From Chitinophaga pinensis (GTDB taxonomy: Bacteria > Bacteroidota > Bacteroidia > NS11-12g > UBA9320), in the NCBI GenBank assembly GCA_945897885.1, contig CAMDGU010000014.1, forward strand, positions 1 to 56,318: a stretch of 56,318 nt of DNA, written 5' to 3'. Made by a program: the position numbers and the translations under genes. How positions within the stretch are numbered: position 1 is the first letter of the stretch; every line of letters starts with the position of its first letter. A model generated the notes under the pieces. It saw nothing but the letters and a program-made list of their open reading frames with translations. It ran no database searches and was not told the origin of the DNA. This document shows, piece by piece, positions 1-23,634 of this stretch.

Positions 1-3000
1 TCACCTTCCTTCACTTTTGTATTAAAATGTCAAGGTGATTCAGCAATATTTACCGACAATACTGTTTATGCTTGTGGAGCAGGTTCAGGTTTAGTATTTA
101 GTTGGGATTTTGGAGACGGAACCAAATCTAATGTTCAAAATGCACGTAAACGCTATAACTCTTCAGGAACGTATAATGTGAAATTTAAAATTTCATTACC
201 TGGTGGATTTAAAGATTCAATAACTAAAACGGTTGTATTTAATATTAAATCAACTCCAAGTTTCACTGCTACCAATAATTGTTTCCCTGATGCCACAACG
301 TTTACAAACAGTTCAACCAATTATGCATCTTTGGCATGGTCATTTGGCGATGGCACAACAAGTACAACAACAAGTTCATCATTTACTAAAACCTATTCTG
401 TAGCTTCTACATACAGTGCTAAGTTAGTTGCAACCTCTACTTTTGGGTGCAAAGATTCTATAGTAAAAACAGTAAATGTATTTAGTAAACCAAAAGCTGT
501 ATTCTCAGTTTCTAATAACTGTATAGGAACTTCAACTACCTTTAATAATTCATCAAGTGGTGCAGTTAGTTATCTATGGAGTTTTGGAGATGGTAATAAT
601 TCATCAAATGTAAATCCTAGTAATACTTATGCCAGCGCCAATACTTTTAGTGTTAAATTAAAAGTAACTTCAAGTAATGGATGTATAGATTCAGTTGCAA
701 ATACAGTAACAATCTATCCTAATCCGGTTGCAAATTTTACAACTGCAAATGTTTGTAATGGTTTTGCAAGCACATTTACAAACAGTTCAACCGGAGCAAG
801 TACTTATTCTTGGAATTTTGGAAATGGAAATAGCTCTACTGCAACCAATCCTACCTATACCTATCCTACAGCAGGAACGTATACTGTTACTTTAACGTCT
901 ACATCTTCCAATGGCTGTGTCAATACAGTTGCAAAATCGTATACCGTTAATAGTTCACCAAAAGCGGCCTTTACTGGAGGTAACACCTGTTTAGGAAATA
1001 GTATAACATTTAATAATACAAGTACGGGAGCTGCTAGCAACAGTTGGAATTTTGGGGATGCTACAACTTCAACGGTTGCTAGTCCATCAAAAACTTATAC
1101 AGCAGCTGGAAACTATACTGTGAAACTTGTAATTACAAATTCTTTTGGATGTAAAGATTCAGTTACAAATGCCATAACGATTTTTGCCAAGCCAGTGCCT
1201 GCTTTCACAGCTTCTAATCAATGCTTGGGTAATGCAGTAACTTTTACAAATCAATCAACAGGAGCTAATTCTCAGGTTTGGGTATTTGGGGATGGAAAGT
1301 CAAGTGCTGCCAACTCTCCAACTTATACTTATGCCAGCGCAAATACCTATAGCGTTAAATTAGTTCTGACCTCAGTTAATAGCTGTAGAGACTCTATTAC
1401 CAAAACTGTTACGGTATTTCCTCGTCCTTCGGTATCATTCACTGCTTCTCCTGATCCTATTTGTCGCGGAGGCTTGATGAGTTTTACAAATACTACAACT
1501 AATGGTGCCACTTATAGTTGGACTTTTGGGAATGGAAGCACAAGCACAAGCACAAGCCCAACTAATATCTATAATGTGGCTGGAAATTATAATGTAAAAT
1601 TAGTTTCAGTTAGTACCAATGGCTGCAGAGATTCATTGTCAAAAACGGTAACAGTATGGCCTAGGCCGGTTGCTTCTTTCAAAGTAGATAATGGCTGTAC
1701 AGGTGATGCTTTATCTTTTGCAACCAACTCTGTAGGTGCTGTAGGTCATGAGTGGACTTTTGGAGATGGGAATACTTCTACTGCTGCAAATCCTTCAAAA
1801 GGATATACTGCCGCTGCAACATATAGTGTAAGATTAATTGTTACTTCTGTGAATGGCTGTAAGGATACAACTAGTTCTAATGTAACGGTTCATCCCCGGG
1901 CTTCGGTTTCATTTACCAATCCAACTAATTTCTGCGTTGGGCTGAGTGCAACCTTTGCTAATACGTCTACCTTATCTTCAGGAACAATGACCTATCAATG
2001 GAATTTTGGAGATGGTAATTCAGGAGGTGCCACTAATCCTACAAATACCTATGCGTCAGCTGGAAATTATACTGTAAAACTTACAGCTACAACCGATAAA
2101 GGGTGTATTAATACTGCCTCAAGTTCAGTGTTAGTATTTGCAAAGCCAACAGCTAATTTTAATGCAAATGCAGCATGTGCCGGCAATACGGTTACGTTTA
2201 ATAATACAACTACAGGAGGCACAACGTATGCATGGGATTTTGGGGATGCAACGACATCAACACTAGCCTCGCCAACAAAAATATATGCTACAGCAGGAAC
2301 CTATACAGTTAAACTGACCGCAACAAATGCTAACAGTTGTTCAGATGTGTTTACCAAAACAATTGTAATTTATGCAAATCCAACAGCTAATTTCTCTGCT
2401 ACTGATCGCTGTGTAGGTCAATCTATATCTTTTACCAATACTTCAACCGGAGCCAACGATGTTTTATGGCAGTTTGGTGATGGAGGTAGTTCAAATAGTT
2501 ATAACCCGAGCTACACTTATGCTAATGCCGGTGCATTCAATGTTGTATTAAATGTAGAGTCTATCAATGGTTGCTTAAGTTCTGTTACTAAAACAGTTAA
2601 TGTATTTGCCTCGCCAAAGGTTGCATTTAGTGTAAATGATGCCAGCCAATGTATAAATGGCAATACCTTTGTTTATAATGATAATTCTACAATTGCATCA
2701 GGAACATTAACCAGATTATGGAGTTTTGGGGATGGAAGTAATTCAACGGCAACTAATCCTACAAAAGTATATAGCACTTCTGCAAACTTTACTACTAAAT
2801 TGGTTGTCACCAGCTCAAATGGTTGTAAGGATTCAACATCAAGTTCAGTAACTGTTAATCCTAAGCCAACAGCTAATTTTACAATTAATAAATCTACACA
2901 ATGTTTAAACGGTAATTTGTTTTCATTTTCAGATGCATCATCGCTATCTCAAGGTTCATTAAATCATAACTGGGCTTTAGGCGACGGATCGGTGGCTAGC

Positions 3001-3885
3001 GGAACCAACGCTGTTAGAAAATACAATTCAGCGGGAACTTATACCATAAGATTAGGCATAGCTTCTGATTTGGGATGTATTGACAGTATTTCTAAGACAG
3101 TTACCGTTTATCCAAGTCCTTTGGCTTCTTTCACTGTTAATGATGATATTCAGTGCTTAAACGGTAACAACTTTAGCTTTACAAATACGTCATCAGGTGC
3201 AACCGGATACAGCAGTCTTTGGAATTTAGGTGATGGTTCTACTATTACTACTCCAAATGCATCTCGCACCTATACCATAAAGGGTAATTATAAAGTTACT
3301 TTGAACGTGAGCACACCTTTTGGTTGCAAAGATTCAGCTTATTACACCATGAAAGTTTTGGCCAATCCATCTGCAATTACAATCTCTGGTCCTAATACGG
3401 CAGCCAACGGCAGTACCCAAATTTACAGTGTTACAGCTACACCGGGTTCAACTTATAATTGGTTAGCAACAAATGGAACTGTATTGTCTAACGGAGCGGA
3501 TAGAATTCAAATTAGATGGAATGCTGCAGGAACTACAGGTGTAATTTCAGTTACAGAAACTGGTGAAAACGGATGCCAGGGAAATCCGGCTAATTATAAT
3601 GTGACTCTTTCTCCTACAAACAGTGCTTATAACCTATCGCGAAATGCGTTTGCTGCTAATCTTTATCCAAATCCTAGTACCAGTAACTTTACAATCGAAG
3701 TAGGTACAGGCGATATGGTAAATCTGAGCGTTTATGATCAATTAGGACGAGAAGTTATGGGTGGAAAACGCTTTAGCACATCCATAACCGTAAGTGATCA
3801 CAATCTTGCATCAGGAATATATACGGTAAAATTGGTAACTGATAAAGGACGAACTACTATTTTAAGATTTGAGGTTAAAAACTAA
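1..3885 (+). CDS. PKD-repeat surface protein with T9SS sorting domain (5' truncated)
   Basis: The frame is open from base 1, so the start lies upstream of the window; about 1,294 residues are visible. I count 14 PKD-like repeats of about 85 residues, each centred on a W-x-FGDG or FGNG core (for example WSFGDG, WNFGNG), the first encoded before base 178. Most repeats carry a Cys near their start (NNC, NTCLG, NQCLG) and a second in an NGCKDS-like motif, suggesting a disulfide per repeat. An Ig-like module follows, and the last 75 residues (LYPNPSTSNFTIEV ... GIYTVKLVTDKG) match a type A T9SS C-terminal domain. The protein is therefore probably exported by T9SS and held on or released from the surface, perhaps as an adhesin of the SprB kind. 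The ligand is unknown. A rho-independent terminator follows directly. Confidence 0.9.
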   Translation, partial: SPSFTFVLKCQGDSAIFTDNTVYACGAGSGLVFSWDFGDGTKSNVQNARKRYNSSGTYNVKFKISLPGGFKDSITKTVVFNIKSTPSFTATNNCFPDATTFTNSSTNYASLAWSFGDGTTSTTTSSSFTKTYSVASTYSAKLVATSTFGCKDSIVKTVNVFSKPKAVFSVSNNCIGTSTTFNNSSSGAVSYLWSFGDGNNSSNVNPSNTYASANTFSVKLKVTSSNGCIDSVANTVTIYPNPVANFTTANVCNGFASTFTNSSTGASTYSWNFGNGNSSTATNPTYTYPTAGTYTVTLTSTSSNGCVNTVAKSYTVNSSPKAAFTGGNTCLGNSITFNNTSTGAASNSWNFGDATTSTVASPSKTYTAAGNYTVKLVITNSFGCKDSVTNAITIFAKPVPAFTASNQCLGNAVTFTNQSTGANSQVWVFGDGKSSAANSPTYTYASANTYSVKLVLTSVNSCRDSITKTVTVFPRPSVSFTASPDPICRGGLMSFTNTTTNGATYSWTFGNGSTSTSTSPTNIYNVAGNYNVKLVSVSTNGCRDSLSKTVTVWPRPVASFKVDNGCTGDALSFATNSVGAVGHEWTFGDGNTSTAANPSKGYTAAATYSVRLIVTSVNGCKDTTSSNVTVHPRASVSFTNPTNFCVGLSATFANTSTLSSGTMTYQWNFGDGNSGGATNPTNTYASAGNYTVKLTATTDKGCINTASSSVLVFAKPTANFNANAACAGNTVTFNNTTTGGTTYAWDFGDATTSTLASPTKIYATAGTYTVKLTATNANSCSDVFTKTIVIYANPTANFSATDRCVGQSISFTNTSTGANDVLWQFGDGGSSNSYNPSYTYANAGAFNVVLNVESINGCLSSVTKTVNVFASPKVAFSVNDASQCINGNTFVYNDNSTIASGTLTRLWSFGDGSNSTATNPTKVYSTSANFTTKLVVTSSNGCKDSTSSSVTVNPKPTANFTINKSTQCLNGNLFSFSDASSLSQGSLNHNWALGDGSVASGTNAVRKYNSAGTYTIRLGIASDLGCIDSISKTVTVYPSPLASFTVNDDIQCLNGNNFSFTNTSSGATGYSSLWNLGDGSTITTPNASRTYTIKGNYKVTLNVSTPFGCKDSAYYTMKVLANPSAITISGPNTAANGSTQIYSVTATPGSTYNWLATNGTVLSNGADRIQIRWNAAGTTGVISVTETGENGCQGNPANYNVTLSPTNSAYNLSRNAFAANLYPNPSTSNFTIEVGTGDMVNLSVYDQLGREVMGGKRFSTSITVSDHNLASGIYTVKLVTDKGRTTILRFEVKN

Positions 3886-8670: not shown

Positions 8671-9690
8671 TTAAACCGCCATCAAATTACATCCCCTTAC
8701 ATCGCTACTATCAAATCTGCCCAAAACTTCAAATGAGCCATTATCAAATAACCGTCCCAAATCAGATGTGCTAATAAAACAACAGCTATCAAGATTGGCC
8801 AAATCAATAATTTTAAGAGTCCCTGTTTTGCCTGGTTTTTCCCAACCAAAAGGATCCGTAGTTTGACCAATGCTTATTTTCATCCAAGGCGGACAATTAA
8901 AAATTCCATCTTTTAAGGAATAGGCTTGTGATAAAAGTTCGGTCATGCCATATTCTGAGGCTATTTGGTTTACATTTAAATTTTGTTGTAAAAAATTATG
9001 CAGTTCCGGACGGGTTATTTCTTTACGTCGTCCTTTCATACCACCGGTTTCCATAACGGTTAAACCTGATAAATCGTTTTTAAAAGCTTCAGCAAAATCA
9101 ATAAGGGCAAAGCTTACCCCCAGTAATATAGTTTTCCGTTCATTCTCTTTATCACTTAATAAATCTTCGCTCAGTTGTTTAAAATTATTTAAGTAAAAAC
9201 CACCTTTGCCTGATAGTTTTAATAGTTTTTCTGCCATATAAACTAATGACGAGCCATTGCGTTCCATATAGGAAGGCAGTAAAAAGCGAAAGGTATAATC
9301 TTCAATTTTTCCAAAATGGAATTCAAATTCTTTAATAAAAGAAGTTTCATACAGATTTAAATCTGCTACATAGTGATTGCTGGTGCCAACTCCAGTGGTG
9401 GAACTACTAGTAAAAATAGTGGTTTGGTCATTTACCGGCGAGCAACTTACCACATGATTTTTAAAAAACTCAATGGGTAAATAAGGGATTTTGGATATTT
9501 CTAAAACCGTTTCAGGACGGATATTAATTAACTGTAAATATTTAGAGTAAACTGGGTTATTTTTGGCCTGATAATAAAATATATCCAAAGCCAGGTCGTT
9601 AAAACTGTCAGGAGTTGCTTTAAAAATTTGTTGCTTGAAACTATTTTTCAATATATCGGTATTACTGTTGTTGCTTTTGAATAATTGCAA
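8671..9690 (-). CDS. LuxE-like acyl-protein synthetase
   Basis: The 339-residue protein resembles the LuxE branch of the adenylating enzymes: an S/T-rich nucleotide loop (FTSSSTTGVGTSNHY, about residue 92), the central segment SEYGMTELLSQAY (about 240), and a C-terminal DVRGCNLM with a Cys six residues from the end. In luminous bacteria LuxE takes an acyl group onto a Cys near the C-terminus; here no lux genes are present, and the acyl substrate is unknown. Such stand-alone LuxE-like genes occur in many Bacteroidota. The longest reading starts at TTG 9690; a second TTG at 9651 would give an N-terminus (MKNSFKQQIF) more like relatives. Either start overlaps the lipoprotein gene on the other strand. 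Confidence 0.8.
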   Translation of the reverse strand: MQLFKSNNSNTDILKNSFKQQIFKATPDSFNDLALDIFYYQAKNNPVYSKYLQLINIRPETVLEISKIPYLPIEFFKNHVVSCSPVNDQTTIFTSSSTTGVGTSNHYVADLNLYETSFIKEFEFHFGKIEDYTFRFLLPSYMERNGSSLVYMAEKLLKLSGKGGFYLNNFKQLSEDLLSDKENERKTILLGVSFALIDFAEAFKNDLSGLTVMETGGMKGRRKEITRPELHNFLQQNLNVNQIASEYGMTELLSQAYSLKDGIFNCPPWMKISIGQTTDPFGWEKPGKTGTLKIIDLANLDSCCFISTSDLGRLFDNGSFEVLGRFDSSDVRGCNLMAV

Positions 9691-13729: not shown

Positions 13730-16700
13730 ATGAGTTTAAAACATTACTTAAGCGCTTTAGTGCTATTTCTCTTAACCAATTTTGGATATTCACAATCTAA
13801 TTACGGTGAGATAAGAGGAAAAGTTACAGACAAAAAAACCCGTTCCGTGCTTGATTACGCCACTGTGGTTGTAAGAAAAGAAGGGATTCTAAAAGCCTCT
13901 ACATCCAGTGATGATAATGGTGATTATTACATTAAGGGTATTGATCCGGGGGAATATGATGTAGAAGTAACCTTTGTTGGATACAAGAAATACCAGGCTA
14001 CAGGAATTAAAGTAACTAGTGGTACCATTACATTTTGGAATATTGAAATGTCAGTAAAAAGTGACGATGGTGAGGAATTGGGAGGTGTTGATGTTATTCG
14101 ATTTAAAAAGAAACTTGTAGAAGAAGATGGTAATAAAAATACATTGACATCAAAAGATATTTTAAAACTTCCCCAACGTGGTGTTGGCGCGATAGCCAAT
14201 ACATCTTCAGGAACCAATACATCCGGTGGTGGAATTTCTTTTTTAGGTAGCAGAACTGACGGAACACGTTTGTTTATTGATGGTGTTCCGGTAATTGGAA
14301 ATACTGCGATGCCTACTGTAGGCCAGGAGCAAATTGATTTAATACAAAGTGGTGTGCCTGCCATGTTTGGTGACCTTACCGGGGGTGCCATAAACATTAC
14401 CACCAAAGGACCTAGCCGCAGAAGATCTCAATATTATGAATATGTAACCTCAAGCCTTTTTGATAAATGGCATTATAATACACTTGAGTTAGCATACTCC
14501 GGTCCTATAAAAATTATAAACAAAGGTGGTGGCGATAAGGAAAGAGTACTTTTTGGCTACCAAATTTCAGGCCATTTAGAATATCAAAAGGATAATAGCC
14601 CAACCGTTCTTGGTTCATGGACTGTAAAGGATGATGTGCTTGATAATATCAAAGAAAATCCGTTATCCGTAAACCCAAATGGAGGAGGATTTATTCCAAC
14701 TTCTTCATTTCTTACCAAGGACGATTTGGAACTTCAGAAAGCACGTCAAAATGTACCTTTTTATTTAGGTGTTGTTAACGCAAAATTTGAGTACACACCT
14801 ACAAAATCATCTGTTCTAACTTTCTATGGAAGTGCAAGTACACAGCAATCAAGAGGATATGGTTACACCTCATCATTATTAAATTTTGATGAATATGCCT
14901 TAGCCACTAACCAAACCTACCGTACCTATTTAAGATATACTCAAAAAATAGGATATCAAAGTGGAGACAAACGTGAAAAGGATGCTAAAAAGCCATTGGT
15001 TTCGGATGCGTTCTACTCAATCCGTGCCGATTATCAAACCAGTATTGGTAAGAGTCAGCACAATACGCATAAAGATAAAATTTTTGATTATGGCTATGTA
15101 GGTAAGTTTACTAGATATCGTGCTCCTGTTTATGAATACAAAACAGAAGCTCAAAAATATATTATTACCAAGGATGGTAAAAGTGATACCGTTGTTCGTC
15201 AGGGTTATTATGAATTAACAGGTTTTAGAGATACCATGATTACCTATGAAGCGGGAACACAAAATCCATTACGAAGCAGATATACTGAAAATGCTTACGA
15301 TTATTTTAAAGACAACTTTGGTTTGAGAGGGGCTTTAAGCGATGGAATGATTGCTACATTTAACGGTGTGCTAAATGGTAATAATCTGCCTGGAACATAC
15401 TCCTTATGGTTAAACCCTGGAACTCTCTTGGCAGGATATAGCAAGAGCCAACAAGAACGTTTTTCAGCTTACGCAATTGGAGAAGCATCTATTAATACAG
15501 GTAAAAAGAAAGAAAATAAACATGATATTCAGTTTGGTATGACTTATGAGCAAAATATTCTTAGTTCATATGGGTTAAGTGCCAGTAGTTTATGGATATT
15601 AATGCCTCAATTGGCTAATAGACACATTGCTAATTTGGATCAGGTAAAACAAGGCGATTATATTTTAAACAGTACTCAGTCGTTTGATAATGATGGTAGA
15701 TTTTTGGATACCGTAAACTATAACATTAGAGTAGATGCTGATCAACAATCAAATTTCGACAAAAATCTGAGAGCTAAATTAATGGCTCAAGGTCGCACCG
15801 ATGCTTATGGTAATAAAATTGGAGAAACAACCTTTATCGATGTAAACTCCTTATCACCCTCAGATTTGGAACTTAAAATGTTTAATGCAGATGATTTAAA
15901 TAATAAAAATAACCAATTTGTAAGTTATAATGGGTATGACTATTTAGGAAACAGAACACGTAAACGTTTTGGAATTAATGACTTTTTGTTAGACAAACAG
16001 AATAGAAGCTTAGGTTCATTTGCTCCAATATATAGTGCCGCATGGTTGCAAGATAAATTTGCGGTTAAAGATATGATTTTTAGGGTAGGGGTGAGGATTG
16101 AGCGTTATGATGCCAATCAGCCAACTTTGAAGGATCCTTATTCGCTTTACCCTATTAAAACGGTAGGTGAAGTAGGGGAATTAAATGGATTAGCAATTAA
16201 TCACCCTGACAATATCGGTGATGATTATGCCATATACGTTAACAATGCAAAAAATCCAACAAAGGTTTTGGGCTATAGAAAAGATAATACATGGTATGAT
16301 GCTCAAGGAGTAGAAGTGTCAAACCCTGAAATATTAGCTCAGCAAACTGCAAGTAATATTATTCAACCGTATTTATTTGATGCAAACAATAAGGAAATTG
16401 TTAAAGAAGCCTTTAAAGATTATGAACCACAAGTGAATGTTTTACCACGTGTATGGTTTTCATTTCCTATTAACAAAGAAGCATTGTTCTTCGCTAATTA
16501 TGATGTGTTAACACAACGCCCAACAGATGGAGCTACATTTACACCGGTAAGTTCATATTATTTCCTTGAATCTGACCAAAGCAGATTTTTGCCTAATGCA
16601 GCCTTAAAGCCACGTATCAAAACGATGTATGAATTGGGTTACAAACAAAAATTGAGTAATGTATCTGCAATAAGCGTTATCATGTCTTATTCTGAAGTTC

Positions 16701-17512
16701 GTAATGATTTTGGACAGTATCGCTACAATCAGGCATATCCTGTTTCCTACACCAGTTATTCTAATATTGATTTTTCTACAAATAAGGCATTCCGCGCTGA
16801 ATACCAATACAGAGGATTAAAGAACTTCCAAATGTCAGCAAACTACACATTGTTATTTGCTGATGGTACAGGATCCAACATTAATGCTCAATCGGCATTG
16901 ATTCAAGCTAATCAGCCAAACCTGCGTTCACTTTATCCTTTGGATGTTGATTTTAGACATAATTTCAATACCACATTTACTTATGGTTATGAAGGAGGAA
17001 AAGATTACAAAGGTCCAATTTGGTTTGGAAAAAGAGTATTTGAAAATGCGGAAGCCAGCTTTATTGTTTTAGCTCGTTCAGGCGCTCCATATACAGCTAA
17101 CTTAAGTCCTACTGCTACTGCAATGGGAGCACTAGGGACTGTAACACGTAGCCAAATTAAAGGAAACCCTTATGGTTCTCGTATGCCTTGGCAGTTTAAG
17201 GCCGACGTTAACATCAGTCGTTCTTTTGAGTTTAAGAAAAAACAAGTTAAAGAAGATAGAATTAACGTCACAGGAATGACCGTTTTCTTCTGGGTGCAAA
17301 ATCTATTCAATGGTAAAATAGTGCAAGGCGTTTATGCCTTTACAGGTTTACCTGATGATGATGGTTACTTAAGTTCTCCAGAGGGACAACAAAAAATTTC
17401 ACAACAAGTTAGTCAGCAGTCCTTTATCGACTTGTATAATATTAGCGTAAATAATCCCTTTAATTATGGCGCACCACGTATGATGCGTTTAGGGGTAAGA
17501 TTTCAATTATAA
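13730..17512 (+). CDS. TonB-dependent receptor with carboxypeptidase-regulatory domain
   Basis: This 1,260-residue outer-membrane protein has a signal peptide (LSALVLFLLTNFGYSQ), an N-terminal beta-sandwich (GEIRGKVTDKKTRSVLDYAT ..., about 25-112), a plug domain (about 130-225, with GTRLFIDGVPVIG and GDLTGGAINITTKG), and a long barrel ending in the aromatic strand MMRLGVRFQL. Such receptors import a substrate using TonB/ExbBD energy. It is not followed by a SusD gene, as SusC receptors are, but by a 1.3-kb-residue exported protein and a PorV/PorQ-like barrel, six and 23 bases apart, which implies one transcript. The substrate cannot be told from sequence. No standard TAnnTTTG box is visible upstream. 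Confidence 0.9.
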   Translation: MSLKHYLSALVLFLLTNFGYSQSNYGEIRGKVTDKKTRSVLDYATVVVRKEGILKASTSSDDNGDYYIKGIDPGEYDVEVTFVGYKKYQATGIKVTSGTITFWNIEMSVKSDDGEELGGVDVIRFKKKLVEEDGNKNTLTSKDILKLPQRGVGAIANTSSGTNTSGGGISFLGSRTDGTRLFIDGVPVIGNTAMPTVGQEQIDLIQSGVPAMFGDLTGGAINITTKGPSRRRSQYYEYVTSSLFDKWHYNTLELAYSGPIKIINKGGGDKERVLFGYQISGHLEYQKDNSPTVLGSWTVKDDVLDNIKENPLSVNPNGGGFIPTSSFLTKDDLELQKARQNVPFYLGVVNAKFEYTPTKSSVLTFYGSASTQQSRGYGYTSSLLNFDEYALATNQTYRTYLRYTQKIGYQSGDKREKDAKKPLVSDAFYSIRADYQTSIGKSQHNTHKDKIFDYGYVGKFTRYRAPVYEYKTEAQKYIITKDGKSDTVVRQGYYELTGFRDTMITYEAGTQNPLRSRYTENAYDYFKDNFGLRGALSDGMIATFNGVLNGNNLPGTYSLWLNPGTLLAGYSKSQQERFSAYAIGEASINTGKKKENKHDIQFGMTYEQNILSSYGLSASSLWILMPQLANRHIANLDQVKQGDYILNSTQSFDNDGRFLDTVNYNIRVDADQQSNFDKNLRAKLMAQGRTDAYGNKIGETTFIDVNSLSPSDLELKMFNADDLNNKNNQFVSYNGYDYLGNRTRKRFGINDFLLDKQNRSLGSFAPIYSAAWLQDKFAVKDMIFRVGVRIERYDANQPTLKDPYSLYPIKTVGEVGELNGLAINHPDNIGDDYAIYVNNAKNPTKVLGYRKDNTWYDAQGVEVSNPEILAQQTASNIIQPYLFDANNKEIVKEAFKDYEPQVNVLPRVWFSFPINKEALFFANYDVLTQRPTDGATFTPVSSYYFLESDQSRFLPNAALKPRIKTMYELGYKQKLSNVSAISVIMSYSEVRNDFGQYRYNQAYPVSYTSYSNIDFSTNKAFRAEYQYRGLKNFQMSANYTLLFADGTGSNINAQSALIQANQPNLRSLYPLDVDFRHNFNTTFTYGYEGGKDYKGPIWFGKRVFENAEASFIVLARSGAPYTANLSPTATAMGALGTVTRSQIKGNPYGSRMPWQFKADVNISRSFEFKKKQVKEDRINVTGMTVFFWVQNLFNGKIVQGVYAFTGLPDDDGYLSSPEGQQKISQQVSQQSFIDLYNISVNNPFNYGAPRMMRLGVRFQL

Positions 17513-17575
17513 TTAAAAATGTTAAAAATTATGAAATCGAAAATGTATAAAAATCATAAGTTAAATAATCATAAA

Positions 17576-20500
17576 ATGAGTTACAAATTGAAATATATAG
17601 TTTTTTCATTATTTGCATTTGGTGTTATTACCAGCTCAACTGCAAGAGAAAATGTTGGCGAAAAATTGGTGAAGCCAACCACGCCATCTCACAAATTAAT
17701 GAAATTAGCAGCAGCTTGCGAACCGGCAACGGCAAGTGCTGATTTGGATGTAAATAACGTTCGTACCAAAATACTTAATGGTGGCGATATGTGGTGGGAT
17801 TTATCCAATCCAAAATATGAGATACCTAAAATAGCTACTAATGTAAACTCAGTAAGAAAGCACTCTTTGTTTTCAGGTGCTATTTGGGTTGGGGGGTATG
17901 ATGGTAAAGCAGGTTCAGGAAGTTTGAAACTTGCTGCTATGACCTATAGACAAGGTGGTTCAGATTTTTGGCCGGGTCCTTTGGACAATGAGTCGAATAC
18001 AGATGAAGCTACTTGTAAAAAGTGGGATAATATTTACAAAATAAAGCGCCAAGAGATTATTGAGCATTATTCAAATATCGTAAACGGCACACCTTCTTTA
18101 TCAGAAAATGTTGGTGGTTGGCCAGGAAATCCATCAGTAAATACGCCACCTATGGCTCCTTATTTTGATTATGACAATAATGGTCAGTATAACCCTATTG
18201 GAGGAGATTATCCTGTATTGCAAAATGATTGTCGTGGAAAAAAGTTAACTGCCTATAAGGATAACAGGCCAGAAGATCAGCCTGATGAAATGTTATATTT
18301 TGTTTATAATGATAAAGGAAATAACCATGCTGAGTCAGGAGCTTTGCCTATTGGGTTAGAATTACATACTATAGCATTTGCCTATGCATCTAATGATGAA
18401 ATAAATAACATGACGTTTTATACCACCCGTATTATAAATAGAGGTGCAAGTACTTTGTATGACACCTATTTTGGAGAGTGGGTTGATGCGGATTTAGGAA
18501 ATTACAAGGATGATTATGTAGGATGTGATGTAAAACGCAGTTTAGGTTTTGCCTACAATGGAGATGATAATGATGAAGGTATTTTAGGTTATGGATTAAA
18601 TCCGCCTTCAGTTGGGGTTGATTTTTTTGAAGGACCTAAAAAGGATACGTTAATGAACGGGCGTGATACTGTGATAGAATTAGGAATGAGCAAGTTTGTT
18701 TATTATGATAATGATTTCACGGTTTTTGGAAACCCAGAAAGACCCATTCATTATTACTATTACCTTACCGGCAGATGGAAAAACGGGACATGTATGACAA
18801 ATGATGGTAAAAGTGGAAGAACCGGAACCAATTGTACCAATTATCTTTTTCCATTTGATACAGACCCTAAGGTTACTGGAAACTGGAATGAACGCTCAGC
18901 CGGAAATCCGCCGGCAGATAGACGTTTTTTACAAACAAGCGGACCGTTTACCTTAAAATCCGGAGCTGTAAATAAACTAACAGTTGGTGTTGTTTGGGCT
19001 AGAGCAAGTACAGGAGGTGCGGAAGGTTCTCTAGCTTTACTTAAATTGGCAAGTGATAAAGCTCAAACATTATTTAATAACTGTTTTAATCCTGTAGATG
19101 GTCCGGATGCACCTATAACAACTGTTCAAGAATTGGACAATGAACTTATATTTATGTTTGGAGATACCAAACGTATAGAAGGTTTTAATGATACAGTTTT
19201 AGATGAAAATAACAAACCGCAGTTATATAAATTTGAAGGATATAGAATATTTCAGTTAAAGGATGGTTCAGTAGGTACAGGCGATTTGGATGACATTGAT
19301 AAGGCACGTGAAATTTTTACCTCAGATATAAAAAATAATATTATTCGTTTAGTAAATAAACCATTTGATGCAACTTTGGGTCAAAGGTTGCCTAAATTGA
19401 TGATTGATGCGCCCAATAAAGGATTAGTTCATTCACTAGCAATTACTGAGGATGCATTCGCAACAGAATCCAATAAATCATTATTAAATTTTAAAACATA
19501 TTATTATTTGATAATTTCTTACGCTGCAGAGCCTAATAGTAATCAGGATCAATATTTGGCAGGAAGATTTATTCAGCGTGTGGTGGCAACACCAAGAAAC
19601 CCTGAGCCAAGATTTGGTGGTTCTAAAATCAAAGGAGGATATGGCGTAGGTCCTCGAATTAAGAGAATGGAAGGAAGTGGCAACGGTGGAAACATAATTA
19701 ATTTAACTAAAGCAAGTGAATTAGAGATTATAAGTAATCCGCCTTATAAAATGGCTAATCCTGTGTATGAAGTAGGAGGTGGTCCGGTAAAAGTAAGCAT
19801 TGTTGATCCTTTAAAAGTTCCTCAGGGTGAATTTGAACTTGTGGTAATTGAATTGAAGGATTCAATAAATTTGAGCGGAACCGCTTCTGCAATTCGCAGA
19901 CGTGAAGCAGGAGTTAAAGGGCATGTTACCAGATGGATATTAATTAAAAAGGGTGCTGATGGTATACCAGATACAATCTTTTCTGAAGAAAAAATAAACG
20001 TAGCCAACGAGCAAATCATTACCAAAAATAATAAATGGCAGTTTAAGACTCAAAGAACTGATACAGCATGGTATAAGGATGTAACGAAGTTATCAGATTG
20101 GGGAATGGCCGTAACAATAAACCAAGTTTTAGATCCCGGGAATCCAGATATAGATGAAACCAATAGTTCACTCGGTTGTGAGGTGATATTTGAAGATGAA
20201 GGGAAAGAATGGTTGACTGCAATGCCAGATATAGACGGTAATCCTTTCTTTAATTGGATACATTCAGGCACTAATGGAAAGAGCAGCAATTATAATGATC
20301 CAACGGAACATGATTACGCTATTAACGGAAATGCCATGGATCCTTTCGATAGTTATGAAAAACTTTGGGAAGGTCGTGTAGCACCATATCGTTTGGCATC
20401 TCGTTTTACAGGAAATGCCGGAGCTAAATTTACTGCTACAGTTATTCAAGGTGTAGCCTACGATGCTACCCCAATAAATGCTACTTGGGGATTGAATCAG

Positions 20501-21547
20501 CTATCGGGTGTTGAGCTGGTATTAACTCCGGACAAAAGCAAATGGACCAGATCTTGTGTTCTGGAAATGAGCGATGATAATATACTTAGTGAAGGTTCAA
20601 ATAAAAAGTTCAATTTAAGGGCACATCCATCATTGGATATTGAAGGAAAGGAAATAGCTGGCGAAAATGGTCGTAGTTGGTTTCCAGGGTATGCTATTAA
20701 TGTTGAAACAGGTGAAAGATTAAATATAATTTTCGGTGAAGACTCACGCCAGTATTCAAATAACGGACGCGATTTAAAATGGAATCCTACTTCAGATGCA
20801 GGCTTTTATGCCAGCGCAGGAACAGGCATCTTGGCCAATGGTGGTCGTCACTATATTTATATTATGGGTTCATACCAGGGTGTTGGTTCTTCGCAGCCAT
20901 TTTTACCAAATTATGATCAGGGGCAGGCTTACCACGACCTATTAAAAACAGCTGATAATACTATGACGGAAACAGCCAGAAGTATTATTGTTAATAAAGT
21001 AATGTACCAATGTATGTATGCAATACCTGCCTATATGGCTCAAGGTTACAAAATGAAAGAAATAGGTGGAATGCCAACGCCTGAGACTGAGGTTAGATTT
21101 AAAATTAGAGTAAAAAAACCATACCGTTTTTATAAAACAATGGATAACTCTTTAAACAATGATAATCCTCGTTATACCTTTAATACAGATGAAGTATTTA
21201 CTGAGTACTCACCTAAGTTAGGAACTAAAGCGCTTGACCTAATAAATATAGTACCAAATCCATATTATGCTTATTCTGATTATGAAAACACATCAATTGA
21301 AAATAGAGTGAGATTAACTAATTTACCTCCACGATGTGATGTATCCATTTATACGATAGATGGTACATTAGTACGAAGAATTAAGAAAGATGATGAAAGT
21401 ACCGATCTTATGTGGGATATGAAAAATGATGCAAAAGTGCCTATTGCTAGTGGTGTATACTTAATTCATGTGAATGCCCCAGGCTTAGGTGAAAAGGTTA
21501 TAAAATGGATGGGTGTAATGCGTGAATTGGATTTGGATTCTTTCTAA
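17576..21547 (+). CDS. Large exported protein with T9SS-like C-terminus, receptor partner
   Basis: The mature protein is about 1,300 residues. ATGs exist from 17519, but MSYKLKYIVFSLFAFGVITSSTA at 17576 is the evident signal peptide. An N-terminal module (SLFSGAIWVGGYDG, then AAMTYRQGGSDFWPGPLD) matches by eye a module common in large Bacteroidota surface proteins of unknown function. The C-terminus has NIVPNPYY, a beta-rich FlgD/T9SS-like domain and GVYLIHVNAPGLGEKVIKW, then 12 extra residues (GVMRELDLDSF). It looks like a T9SS cargo but departs from the strict type A consensus. It lies between a TonB-dependent receptor and a PorV/PorQ-like gene, so I infer that it works on the surface with the receptor and is handled by the PorV-like protein. 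Confidence 0.78.
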   Translation: MSYKLKYIVFSLFAFGVITSSTARENVGEKLVKPTTPSHKLMKLAAACEPATASADLDVNNVRTKILNGGDMWWDLSNPKYEIPKIATNVNSVRKHSLFSGAIWVGGYDGKAGSGSLKLAAMTYRQGGSDFWPGPLDNESNTDEATCKKWDNIYKIKRQEIIEHYSNIVNGTPSLSENVGGWPGNPSVNTPPMAPYFDYDNNGQYNPIGGDYPVLQNDCRGKKLTAYKDNRPEDQPDEMLYFVYNDKGNNHAESGALPIGLELHTIAFAYASNDEINNMTFYTTRIINRGASTLYDTYFGEWVDADLGNYKDDYVGCDVKRSLGFAYNGDDNDEGILGYGLNPPSVGVDFFEGPKKDTLMNGRDTVIELGMSKFVYYDNDFTVFGNPERPIHYYYYLTGRWKNGTCMTNDGKSGRTGTNCTNYLFPFDTDPKVTGNWNERSAGNPPADRRFLQTSGPFTLKSGAVNKLTVGVVWARASTGGAEGSLALLKLASDKAQTLFNNCFNPVDGPDAPITTVQELDNELIFMFGDTKRIEGFNDTVLDENNKPQLYKFEGYRIFQLKDGSVGTGDLDDIDKAREIFTSDIKNNIIRLVNKPFDATLGQRLPKLMIDAPNKGLVHSLAITEDAFATESNKSLLNFKTYYYLIISYAAEPNSNQDQYLAGRFIQRVVATPRNPEPRFGGSKIKGGYGVGPRIKRMEGSGNGGNIINLTKASELEIISNPPYKMANPVYEVGGGPVKVSIVDPLKVPQGEFELVVIELKDSINLSGTASAIRRREAGVKGHVTRWILIKKGADGIPDTIFSEEKINVANEQIITKNNKWQFKTQRTDTAWYKDVTKLSDWGMAVTINQVLDPGNPDIDETNSSLGCEVIFEDEGKEWLTAMPDIDGNPFFNWIHSGTNGKSSNYNDPTEHDYAINGNAMDPFDSYEKLWEGRVAPYRLASRFTGNAGAKFTATVIQGVAYDATPINATWGLNQLSGVELVLTPDKSKWTRSCVLEMSDDNILSEGSNKKFNLRAHPSLDIEGKEIAGENGRSWFPGYAINVETGERLNIIFGEDSRQYSNNGRDLKWNPTSDAGFYASAGTGILANGGRHYIYIMGSYQGVGSSQPFLPNYDQGQAYHDLLKTADNTMTETARSIIVNKVMYQCMYAIPAYMAQGYKMKEIGGMPTPETEVRFKIRVKKPYRFYKTMDNSLNNDNPRYTFNTDEVFTEYSPKLGTKALDLINIVPNPYYAYSDYENTSIENRVRLTNLPPRCDVSIYTIDGTLVRRIKKDDESTDLMWDMKNDAKVPIASGVYLIHVNAPGLGEKVIKWMGVMRELDLDSF

Positions 21548-21570
21548 TAATAATTTTAAAATTAAAAGAC

Positions 21571-22644
21571 ATGAAATTACGAATATTAAATATATTAGGA
21601 TTTGGATTGCTAAGCATAACGGCTAATGCAGGAAACCCGGATAGAGGAGGTCAGGCAAGTGCCAATCAACTTGTAATAAATGGATGGGCTCGATCATCCG
21701 GTATAGGATGGGCTTCACAAAGCAGTGTAAAGGGAATTGAATCCATGTATATGAACATAGGTGGTTTGGTTAATACACCAAAAACGGATATCGCATTTGC
21801 CAGAACAAGCTGGTTATCTGGATCTGGGGTTAACATCAGCAGTTTTGGTTTTGCACATAATTTAGGGAATGATAATGCCATTGGTTTATCTGTAAGCTCT
21901 ATTGATTTGGGTGAAATTCCAATAACTACTGTTCAACAGCCAAATGGCGGTCTTGGCACTTTTTCACCAAGACTTACAAATATCGGTTTGGGATACGGTC
22001 GTAAGTTTACTGAACGTATAACTGGAGGAGTTTTATTACGAGTTTTTTCAGAAAATGCATCAAATATAAAGGCACAAGGCGTGGCAATTGATGCAGGAAT
22101 TCAATATAAAACAAGTTGGAAAACAGCAGATGATACACACTTTGGAGTTTCAATAAAAAATATAGGACCTGATGTAAAATATTCAGGTGACGGTATTTCT
22201 ATTAAAAGACTTAATCCAAAGGATAATCAGGAATCAACGGTTAATCAAAGAGTGGCAAAGTATAACATTCCTGCATTAATTAATATTGGAGGAGCGTATG
22301 ATATTAAACTTGACAAGAAGGGAGAAACGGATTTTCATACACTTACGATTTCAGGTAACTTCACCTACAATGCTTTTTCTTTAAACCAATTAACCTTTGG
22401 GGGTGAATATGTCTATAAAAAAATGTTTATGATTCGTGGAGGCTATGCCTACGAAGAGGGTATTATGAATTATGATACTCGCCGCACTGCCAGCACAGGT
22501 TTAATGGGTGGGGTTACATTTGAATTGCCTTTCGGTAAAGATGGAAATCGTTTTGCATTAGATTATTCATACCGTGATACTCGTCCCTTCTCCGGAACTC
22601 ATTCCATAGGCTTAAAAATGTCCTTGGGAGGTTCTGACGAATAA
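21571..22644 (+). CDS. PorV/PorQ-family outer-membrane protein
   Basis: The 357-residue protein has a signal peptide (ILGFGLLSITANAG) and the FadL-like barrel features of the PorV/PorQ family: an early conserved block (GIESMYMNIGGLVNTPKTDIAFARTSWL, about 48-75), repeated amphipathic strands, and a final strand HSIGLKMSLGG. PorV (LptO) shuttles T9SS cargo from the translocon to the surface attachment complex. This copy is not beside other por genes but directly downstream, 23 bases, of a large T9SS-like protein, suggesting a dedicated copy for that cargo. Whether it is the main PorV of the cell cannot be told here. Confidence 0.82.
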   Translation: MKLRILNILGFGLLSITANAGNPDRGGQASANQLVINGWARSSGIGWASQSSVKGIESMYMNIGGLVNTPKTDIAFARTSWLSGSGVNISSFGFAHNLGNDNAIGLSVSSIDLGEIPITTVQQPNGGLGTFSPRLTNIGLGYGRKFTERITGGVLLRVFSENASNIKAQGVAIDAGIQYKTSWKTADDTHFGVSIKNIGPDVKYSGDGISIKRLNPKDNQESTVNQRVAKYNIPALINIGGAYDIKLDKKGETDFHTLTISGNFTYNAFSLNQLTFGGEYVYKKMFMIRGGYAYEEGIMNYDTRRTASTGLMGGVTFELPFGKDGNRFALDYSYRDTRPFSGTHSIGLKMSLGGSDE

Positions 22645-22762: not shown

Positions 22763-23236
22763 ATGGCTATTAATTACATGACCAAAGAGGGCTACGATGC
22801 TTTAGTAAAAGAAATAGAGCAGTTAGAAAAAGTAGAAAGACGACGTATAAGCGGCCAAATAGCTGAGGCAAAGGAAAAGGGCGATCTTTCTGAAAACGCA
22901 GAATATGATGCTGCCAAGGAGGCTCAGGGTATGCTTGAAATGAAAATAGCAAAGCTTAAAAATATTTTGGGCGATAGCCGAATTTTAGATGGGTCAAAAG
23001 TGGATTTAAGTAAAGTTGGCATTCTTACCAAGGTAACAGTCCTTAATACCAAAACTAACTTAAATCTGAATTATACAATAGTTTCAGAAAAGGAAGCTGA
23101 TCTTAAAGTTGGGAAAATTTCTGTTAAATCTCCAATTGGAATGGGGCTAATGGGTAAAAAGGTAGGTGATATTGTAGAGGTAAAGGTTCCTGCTGGAATT
23201 ATTAACTTTGAAATAATTGAAATTTCAATAGCTTAA
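22763..23236 (+). CDS. greA: Transcription elongation factor GreA
   Basis: The 157-residue length and layout match GreA: N-terminal antiparallel coiled coil (1-75) whose tip carries GDLSENAEYDAAKEAQ with the acidic residues that reach the RNA polymerase active site, then an FKBP-like domain ending in PAGIINFEIIEI. It stimulates cleavage of backtracked RNA. It is followed after five bases by the HIT gene, so the two are probably cotranscribed, a common arrangement in Bacteroidota. A promoter box and a hairpin lie upstream and may regulate it. Confidence 0.95.
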   Translation: MAINYMTKEGYDALVKEIEQLEKVERRRISGQIAEAKEKGDLSENAEYDAAKEAQGMLEMKIAKLKNILGDSRILDGSKVDLSKVGILTKVTVLNTKTNLNLNYTIVSEKEADLKVGKISVKSPIGMGLMGKKVGDIVEVKVPAGIINFEIIEISIA

Positions 23237-23241
23237 AATTC

Positions 23242-23634
23242 ATGTCGACCATATTTACTAAAATTATTAATGGAGAAATACCATGCCATAAAGTAGCTGA
23301 GGATGATAATCATTTAGCTTTTTTGGATATAATGCCACTAAAATCAGGCCATGTTTTAGTAATACCTAAAAAGCAAGTGGATTATATTTTTGATATGCCT
23401 CCTAATGAATTGAGTGAATTAAATTTATTTGCTCAACAGGTGGCCAAAGGTATTAAGTCAGCTATTGATTGTAAAAAAGTGGGAGTTGTGGTTATAGGTT
23501 TGGAAGTGCCTCACGCCCATATTCATCTTATCCCAATTAGCACTGTAGCTGATATAGATTTTTCAAAAGAAAAATTAAAACTTTCTAACGAAGAACTTGC
23601 TGAAACAGCAAGTTTAATTCAACGATTTTTATAA
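23242..23634 (+). CDS. HIT-family nucleotide hydrolase
   Basis: The 130-residue protein has the histidine triad HAHIHLIP (about residues 92-99), with the nucleophile in the middle His, and the N-terminal FTKIINGEIPCHKVAED typical of bacterial HIT (HinT-like) proteins. Members hydrolyse nucleoside phosphoramidates or AMP conjugates. It is read from the greA transcript. Its last six bases overlap the end of the menF-like gene coming from the opposite strand, so there is no intergenic terminator between them. Confidence 0.9.
   Translation: MSTIFTKIINGEIPCHKVAEDDNHLAFLDIMPLKSGHVLVIPKKQVDYIFDMPPNELSELNLFAQQVAKGIKSAIDCKKVGVVVIGLEVPHAHIHLIPISTVADIDFSKEKLKLSNEELAETASLIQRFL

Follow-up and report, generated by a model that had tools for sequence, protein, structure and literature searches.

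In SusCD systems the gene of a TonB-dependent receptor adjoins the gene of a large surface partner, the lipoprotein SusD, and such sets are multi-copy in some lineages, multiplying with diet. In the T9SS attachment complex, a CTD protein is carried uncleaved on a barrel of the PorV/PorQ type: in P. gingivalis the CTDs of PorU and PorZ stay in place, on PorV and PorQ respectively, and cognate PorV-like barrels have been suggested to shield CTDs from cleavage (PMC10202324). Anchoring of a cell-surface protein by a cognate barrel is also found in SprB-SprF and PG1035-PorP-PorE (PMC9143113), where the CTDs are of type B and the barrels of the PorP/SprF kind. The locus analysed here shares features with each of these systems. 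It lies in a window of 56,318 nucleotides (the whole stretch of DNA that was analysed), where the open reading frames of a receptor, a large protein that we call the cargo, and a barrel form one operon-like run on the plus strand, spaced 6 and 23 bases apart, the arrangement that an earlier, sequence-only reading of this DNA had described. The features are as follows.

13730..17512, plus strand: TonB-dependent receptor, 1260 aa, with signal peptide, CarboxypepD_reg domain, plug and beta barrel
13811..14050, plus strand: CarboxypepD_reg-like N-terminal extension, receptor residues 28-107 (PF13620, 55.2 bits, cut-off 32.3)
17519..21547, plus strand: cargo, the large T9SS-type partner, 1342 aa as listed
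17714..19096, plus strand: conserved N-terminal domain, cargo residues ~66-526, a predicted beta-supersandwich (AlphaFold2)
21248..21520, plus strand: CTD, cargo residues 1244-1334, Ig-like and PorZ/PorU-like (PorZ model, Foldseek, fold Z)
21521..21544, plus strand: C-terminal tail RELDLDSF, past the end of the PorZ/PorU CTDs and specific to the core cargo family
21571..22644, plus strand: PorV/PorQ-family outer-membrane barrel, probably cognate to the cargo, 357 aa (NF033709, 143.5 bits)
22763..23634, plus strand: GreA and HIT genes, class-conserved neighbours not thought to be functional parts

Because the majority of cargo relatives begin at the position matching Met20 of the window cargo, the true start of this gene may lie near 17576, which would widen the gap between receptor and cargo to ~63 bases. 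Elsewhere in the window, positions 178-3885 encode a protein of 1235 aa in which about 13 PKD domains are combined with a clear CTD of T9SS type A, and the gene at 8674-9690 carries a LuxE-like acyl-protein synthetase domain, an unusual neighbour of an OmpH pair. A sequence search of the PDB gave nothing useful for receptor, cargo or barrel.

The first gene was correctly read as a TonB-dependent receptor. Its CarboxypepD_reg extension is clear, and plug and barrel are recognised by sequence models through the homologues, of which 21 of 23 match the Pfam Plug and 14 of 23 the TonB_dep_Rec barrel; the Plug match of the window copy itself is weak (E 0.51). The SusC/RagA model TIGR04056 found 11 of the 23 receptor homologues (best 5e-25); at E up to 1 it did not detect the receptor of the window. 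The Oar protein of Myxococcus also combines a CarboxypepD_reg domain with a receptor barrel, and works outward. With a secreted protein encoded next door, the receptor could similarly help the export or release of the cargo or of another protein; we consider this very improbable, as a T9SS CTD and a PorV-type barrel of its own already give the cargo a way out.

The third gene was likewise recognised from sequence as PorV/PorQ-like, and both its own score with the family model NF033709 (cut-off 90) and the matches of all 23 homologues bear this out. The barrel falls far under the cut-offs of the equivalog models for PorV (69 of 250 bits), PorQ (66 of 220) and PorV2 (29 of 325), and is therefore none of these three proper. 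A profile of the trio barrels scores these at 337-540 bits, and in 16 genomes of the class that have no cargo the subfamily was absent, the best score being 87 bits. On sequence grounds, the window barrel is thus assigned to a distinct PorV/PorQ subfamily. The earlier reading had taken it for a copy of the cargo shuttle. A dedicated PorV-like barrel is indeed encoded alongside the cargo, but a cognate anchor is more likely than another copy of the general shuttle, because the trio-barrel profile gives the genome's own true PorV, PorQ and PorV2-like proteins only 48-52 bits.

The T9SS-like C-terminus proposed for the protein of about 1,300 residues was recovered both by sequence models and in the predicted structure. 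The whole-protein models of PorZ (24.6 of 260 bits) and PorU (12.4 of 420) match it in the CTD only and stay below their cut-offs, so that the cargo is neither PorZ nor PorU. In the AlphaFold2 model the CTD adopts an Ig fold whose best Foldseek match is PorZ (5m11, E 9.3e-6), and fold comparison gave Z scores of 10.5 with PorZ (90 residues), 9.0 with PorU and 7.4 with the RemA, RemZ and NucA CTDs. By fold, therefore, it is a T9SS CTD in the broad sense, with the Ig fold of PorZ, PorU, RemA and RemZ. The narrower models TIGR04183 and PF18962 do not identify it (18 bits with the type A model TIGR04183, under the cut-off of 23), and 17 of 24 cargo homologues match one or the other at E up to 0.01. 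The CTDs of PorZ, and then of PorU, are thus the most similar to that of the cargo; unlike these proteins, the cargo has none of their sequence outside the CTD, its barrel belongs to a separate subfamily, it bears an extra tail and it is linked to a receptor. In comparison with SprB-SprF and PG1035-PorP-PorE, the trio has a PorZ-like CTD and a PorV/PorQ-type barrel, plus the receptor.

Aligned with the cargo, PorZ and PorU reach to about its residue 1334, leaving eight further residues at the cargo's C-terminus. The monomer model shows this tail as disordered (AlphaFold2 pLDDT about 48). The SG-x-Y motif was located in 89 complete core cargos. All of these end in F, Y, L or I, and the stretch that follows the motif measures 27-31 residues in nearly all, most often 28; a canonical CTD in this window has about 20. 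So strictly kept a tail would be hard to explain if the CTD were cut off and discarded, and we infer that the barrel or the receptor binds it. On the diverged cargos of other classes (see below), the tail was looked for in the loci read and not found.

The main body of the cargo belongs to no family and has no Pfam or NCBIfam model. Its conserved stretches are residues 51-700 and 1201-1342, with a variable middle. In an AlphaFold2 model of 1200 residues (45-1244; pLDDT 86, pTM 0.76), the predicted N-terminal domain resembles the supersandwich of GH15, GH65, GH94 and GH116 enzymes, with Z scores of 15-18. The alignment with the dextran dextrinase 9ju0 has Z 18.3 and rmsd 3.4 over 253 residues, structures of GH15, GH94 and GH116 score Z 16-18, and dextran dextrinase, glucodextranase, cellodextrin phosphorylase and GH116 glucosidase together give Z 17-18 over 233-270 residues at rmsd 3.2-3.8. 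The similarity is restricted to the supersandwich (model residues 22-482): downstream of it the predicted secondary structure is mostly strands and the catalytic helical barrel of the enzymes is absent. As neither the window cargo nor any of 24 homologues has a glycoside hydrolase match in Pfam, identity with GH94, GH65, GH15 or GH116 enzymes was rejected. Since the catalytic barrel is absent, sugar binding by the cargo is a lead and not a result; the predicted supersandwich fold alone does not show it. Relatives of this domain also occur by themselves. On another contig of the same genome (L032, 4499-5995), a 498-aa stand-alone relative is encoded away from any receptor or PorV-type barrel, and many related genomes hold short relatives of this kind. 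Another genome (G311, contigs C96 and C200) has tandem arrays of ~11 and ~7 proteins, mostly of 550-585 aa, every one of which matches just the N-terminal domain, and thus an expanded family.

The sequence-only reading had suggested a SusCD-like system. As an analogy this stands: a CTD protein takes the place of SusD beside a receptor, and no lipobox was seen in the N-termini of the cargo and its relatives. As a statement of membership it does not, and is ruled out by the family models and the predicted fold: the SusD models of Pfam match neither the window cargo at E up to 1 nor any of 24 homologues, the SusC/RagA model does not recognise the window receptor, and the trio adds a PorV-type barrel gene. 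The numbers of copies also differ. SusCD sets multiply, whereas in the window's class the trio is found mostly once per genome and is present even in genomes under 2 Mb; SusD copies range from 0 to 27 per genome. We rejected the idea that the trio occurs only where SusD is missing, as 21 of the 33 trio genomes have SusD and 12 do not.

Every one of 58 genomes from the genus, family and order encodes the cargo, and nearly all the loci examined show the same succession of receptor, cargo, barrel and GreA. With a phylum-spanning profile it was found in 305 of 396 evenly drawn genomes of the class, in 149 of 198 genera; an earlier phylum scan with an order-level profile (117 of 392) underestimates this spread. 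A scan of named genomes gave 551 cargo-encoding stretches. The best 80 of these come from Bacteroidales, Flavobacteriales (Cryomorphaceae, Crocinitomicaceae), Chitinophagales and others, mostly metagenome-assembled, and 64 of these best 80 have the receptor-cargo-barrel order and 62 have GreA downstream. In other classes, the loci long enough to judge keep the trio order and have no GreA beside it, and GreA and HIT are therefore old neighbours rather than parts. The earlier reading had pointed to similar gene orders elsewhere in Bacteroidota and proposed a check for conserved adjacency; the order turns out to be kept across the phylum, beyond what was expected, so that the adjacency is not a matter of chance. 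We found no description of the trio in the open-access literature, which is weak evidence, the search being of open-access texts only. Several whole families in the class sample of 396 genomes have no cargo by the phylum-spanning profile, and we guess that Flavobacteriaceae and Bacteroidaceae are among them. SprA is present in the genome of the window and in 59 of 60 genomes tested, so that co-occurrence with the T9SS is uninformative and serves as a consistency check at most.

Because the trio is mostly single-copy and widespread while SusD is so variable in number, a housekeeping surface complex is a serious rival explanation. The cargo would then resemble PorZ or a BamG/BamH canopy, the receptor would be mainly a scaffold or an energy input, and the task could concern a surface glycolipid, T9SS products or outer-membrane assembly. 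The presence of the cargo in all 58 relatives, small genomes included, and a CTD nearest to that of PorZ would fit such a role, for which BamG and BamH, essential surface subunits of BAM, provide a precedent (PMC12611786). However, the receptor retains the plug and the N-terminal extension typical of transporters, whole families live without the trio, and genomes of other classes hold several diverged cassettes, which fits different substrates. On balance, we regard a housekeeping role as unlikely, if the strongest of the alternatives.

The three genes also appear to have changed together. With the GreA and HIT distances removed, those of receptor, cargo and barrel show partial correlations of 0.71, 0.64 and 0.61 over 69 loci, values reached by 0 of 999 permutations; as GreA and HIT are short, these correlations may still carry some species signal from shared ancestry. 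In eight genomes of other classes, cargo, barrel and receptor were searched for separately and their positions compared. Barrels scoring at least 95 bits with the trio-barrel profile are preceded, in the same orientation, by a CTD protein and a receptor in 35 of 44 cases, compared with 3 of 31 PorV-family barrels of lower score, the threshold having been set after the scores were seen and adjacency playing no part in the score. The layout occurs several times per genome with different cargos. In the fifteen cassette loci that we read, most are tightly packed, with a receptor of ~850-1130 aa, a CTD protein of 710-1290 aa and then the barrel, and in ten of the diverged cargos Pfam gave weak CTD matches and nothing else. 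The repetition of cassettes with different cargos means that receptor, CTD protein and barrel form a reusable architecture, of which the window has the most conserved version. At three loci (L197, 4358-8341; L198, 1430-5337; L196, 5659-9569) the barrel comes straight after the receptor, with no CTD protein between. In five other-class loci (L075, 4428-6620; L077, 7867-10089; L079, 4371-6416; L080, 3831-5993; L082, 3547-5760) the barrel gene is followed by one for a multihaem-cytochrome and TPR protein of 680-740 aa, a neighbour that may hint at function there.

It could also be that cargo and barrel are a pair and that the receptor, though encoded next to them, touches neither. One contig (PACT01000037) would agree with this: it has two full-length cargos, one beside a receptor only (L141) and the other beside a barrel and GreA only (L146). 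But a receptor precedes 42 of the 44 barrels scoring at least 95 bits in the eight genomes, and it is adjacent across the phylum, and we find the pair without a receptor a rather improbable explanation. Some genomes also have extra cargos with neither receptor nor barrel (L093, L126).

We give a probability of roughly one half to the reading in which the trio encodes one outer-membrane surface complex, the cargo being tethered by its cognate barrel and gathering a ligand for import by the receptor. Gene order, families, predicted folds, conservation and co-occurrence were computed; from these we infer the secretion route, the retention of the CTD, the contact with the receptor and the ligand. 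According to this model, the cargo would be made with a Sec signal peptide and would cross the outer membrane through the T9SS translocon, after which the adjacent PorV/PorQ-type barrel would catch its CTD. By analogy with PorU on PorV and PorZ on PorQ, the CTD would probably be left uncleaved, and by the same logic the third gene would encode the anchor of the cargo, the barrel supplying to a protein without lipobox what SusD gets from its lipid. The N-terminal supersandwich and the variable middle would sit over the receptor, where the cargo might gather or present a ligand, possibly a glycan, for the receptor to import with TonB energy. A SusD-like role as a lid is plausible for the cargo; that receptor and N-terminal domain work as a transport part is the weakest step of this mechanism.

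With these findings in mind, one may tentatively see in the trio a possible phylum-wide class of TonB-powered surface machines, in which a subunit delivered by the T9SS is held uncleaved on its own PorV-type barrel. This would be a second route, beside the SusD lipoprotein, to a receptor-partner complex, represented by a single conserved core set in most of the class genomes sampled and by several diverged cassettes per genome in other classes, and perhaps overlooked because some well-studied families are without it. With the trio, the proposal that CTDs are protected by their cognate PorV-like barrels (PMC10202324) can be tested directly. If the reading is true, many uncharacterised PorV-family barrels would gain a role, that of holding a cognate partner, and most sampled genomes of the class would encode a core surface complex, the largest protein of which is covered by no Pfam or NCBIfam model over its main body. 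Two hallmarks of Bacteroidota, TonB-dependent uptake and the T9SS, would then be joined in a single unit.
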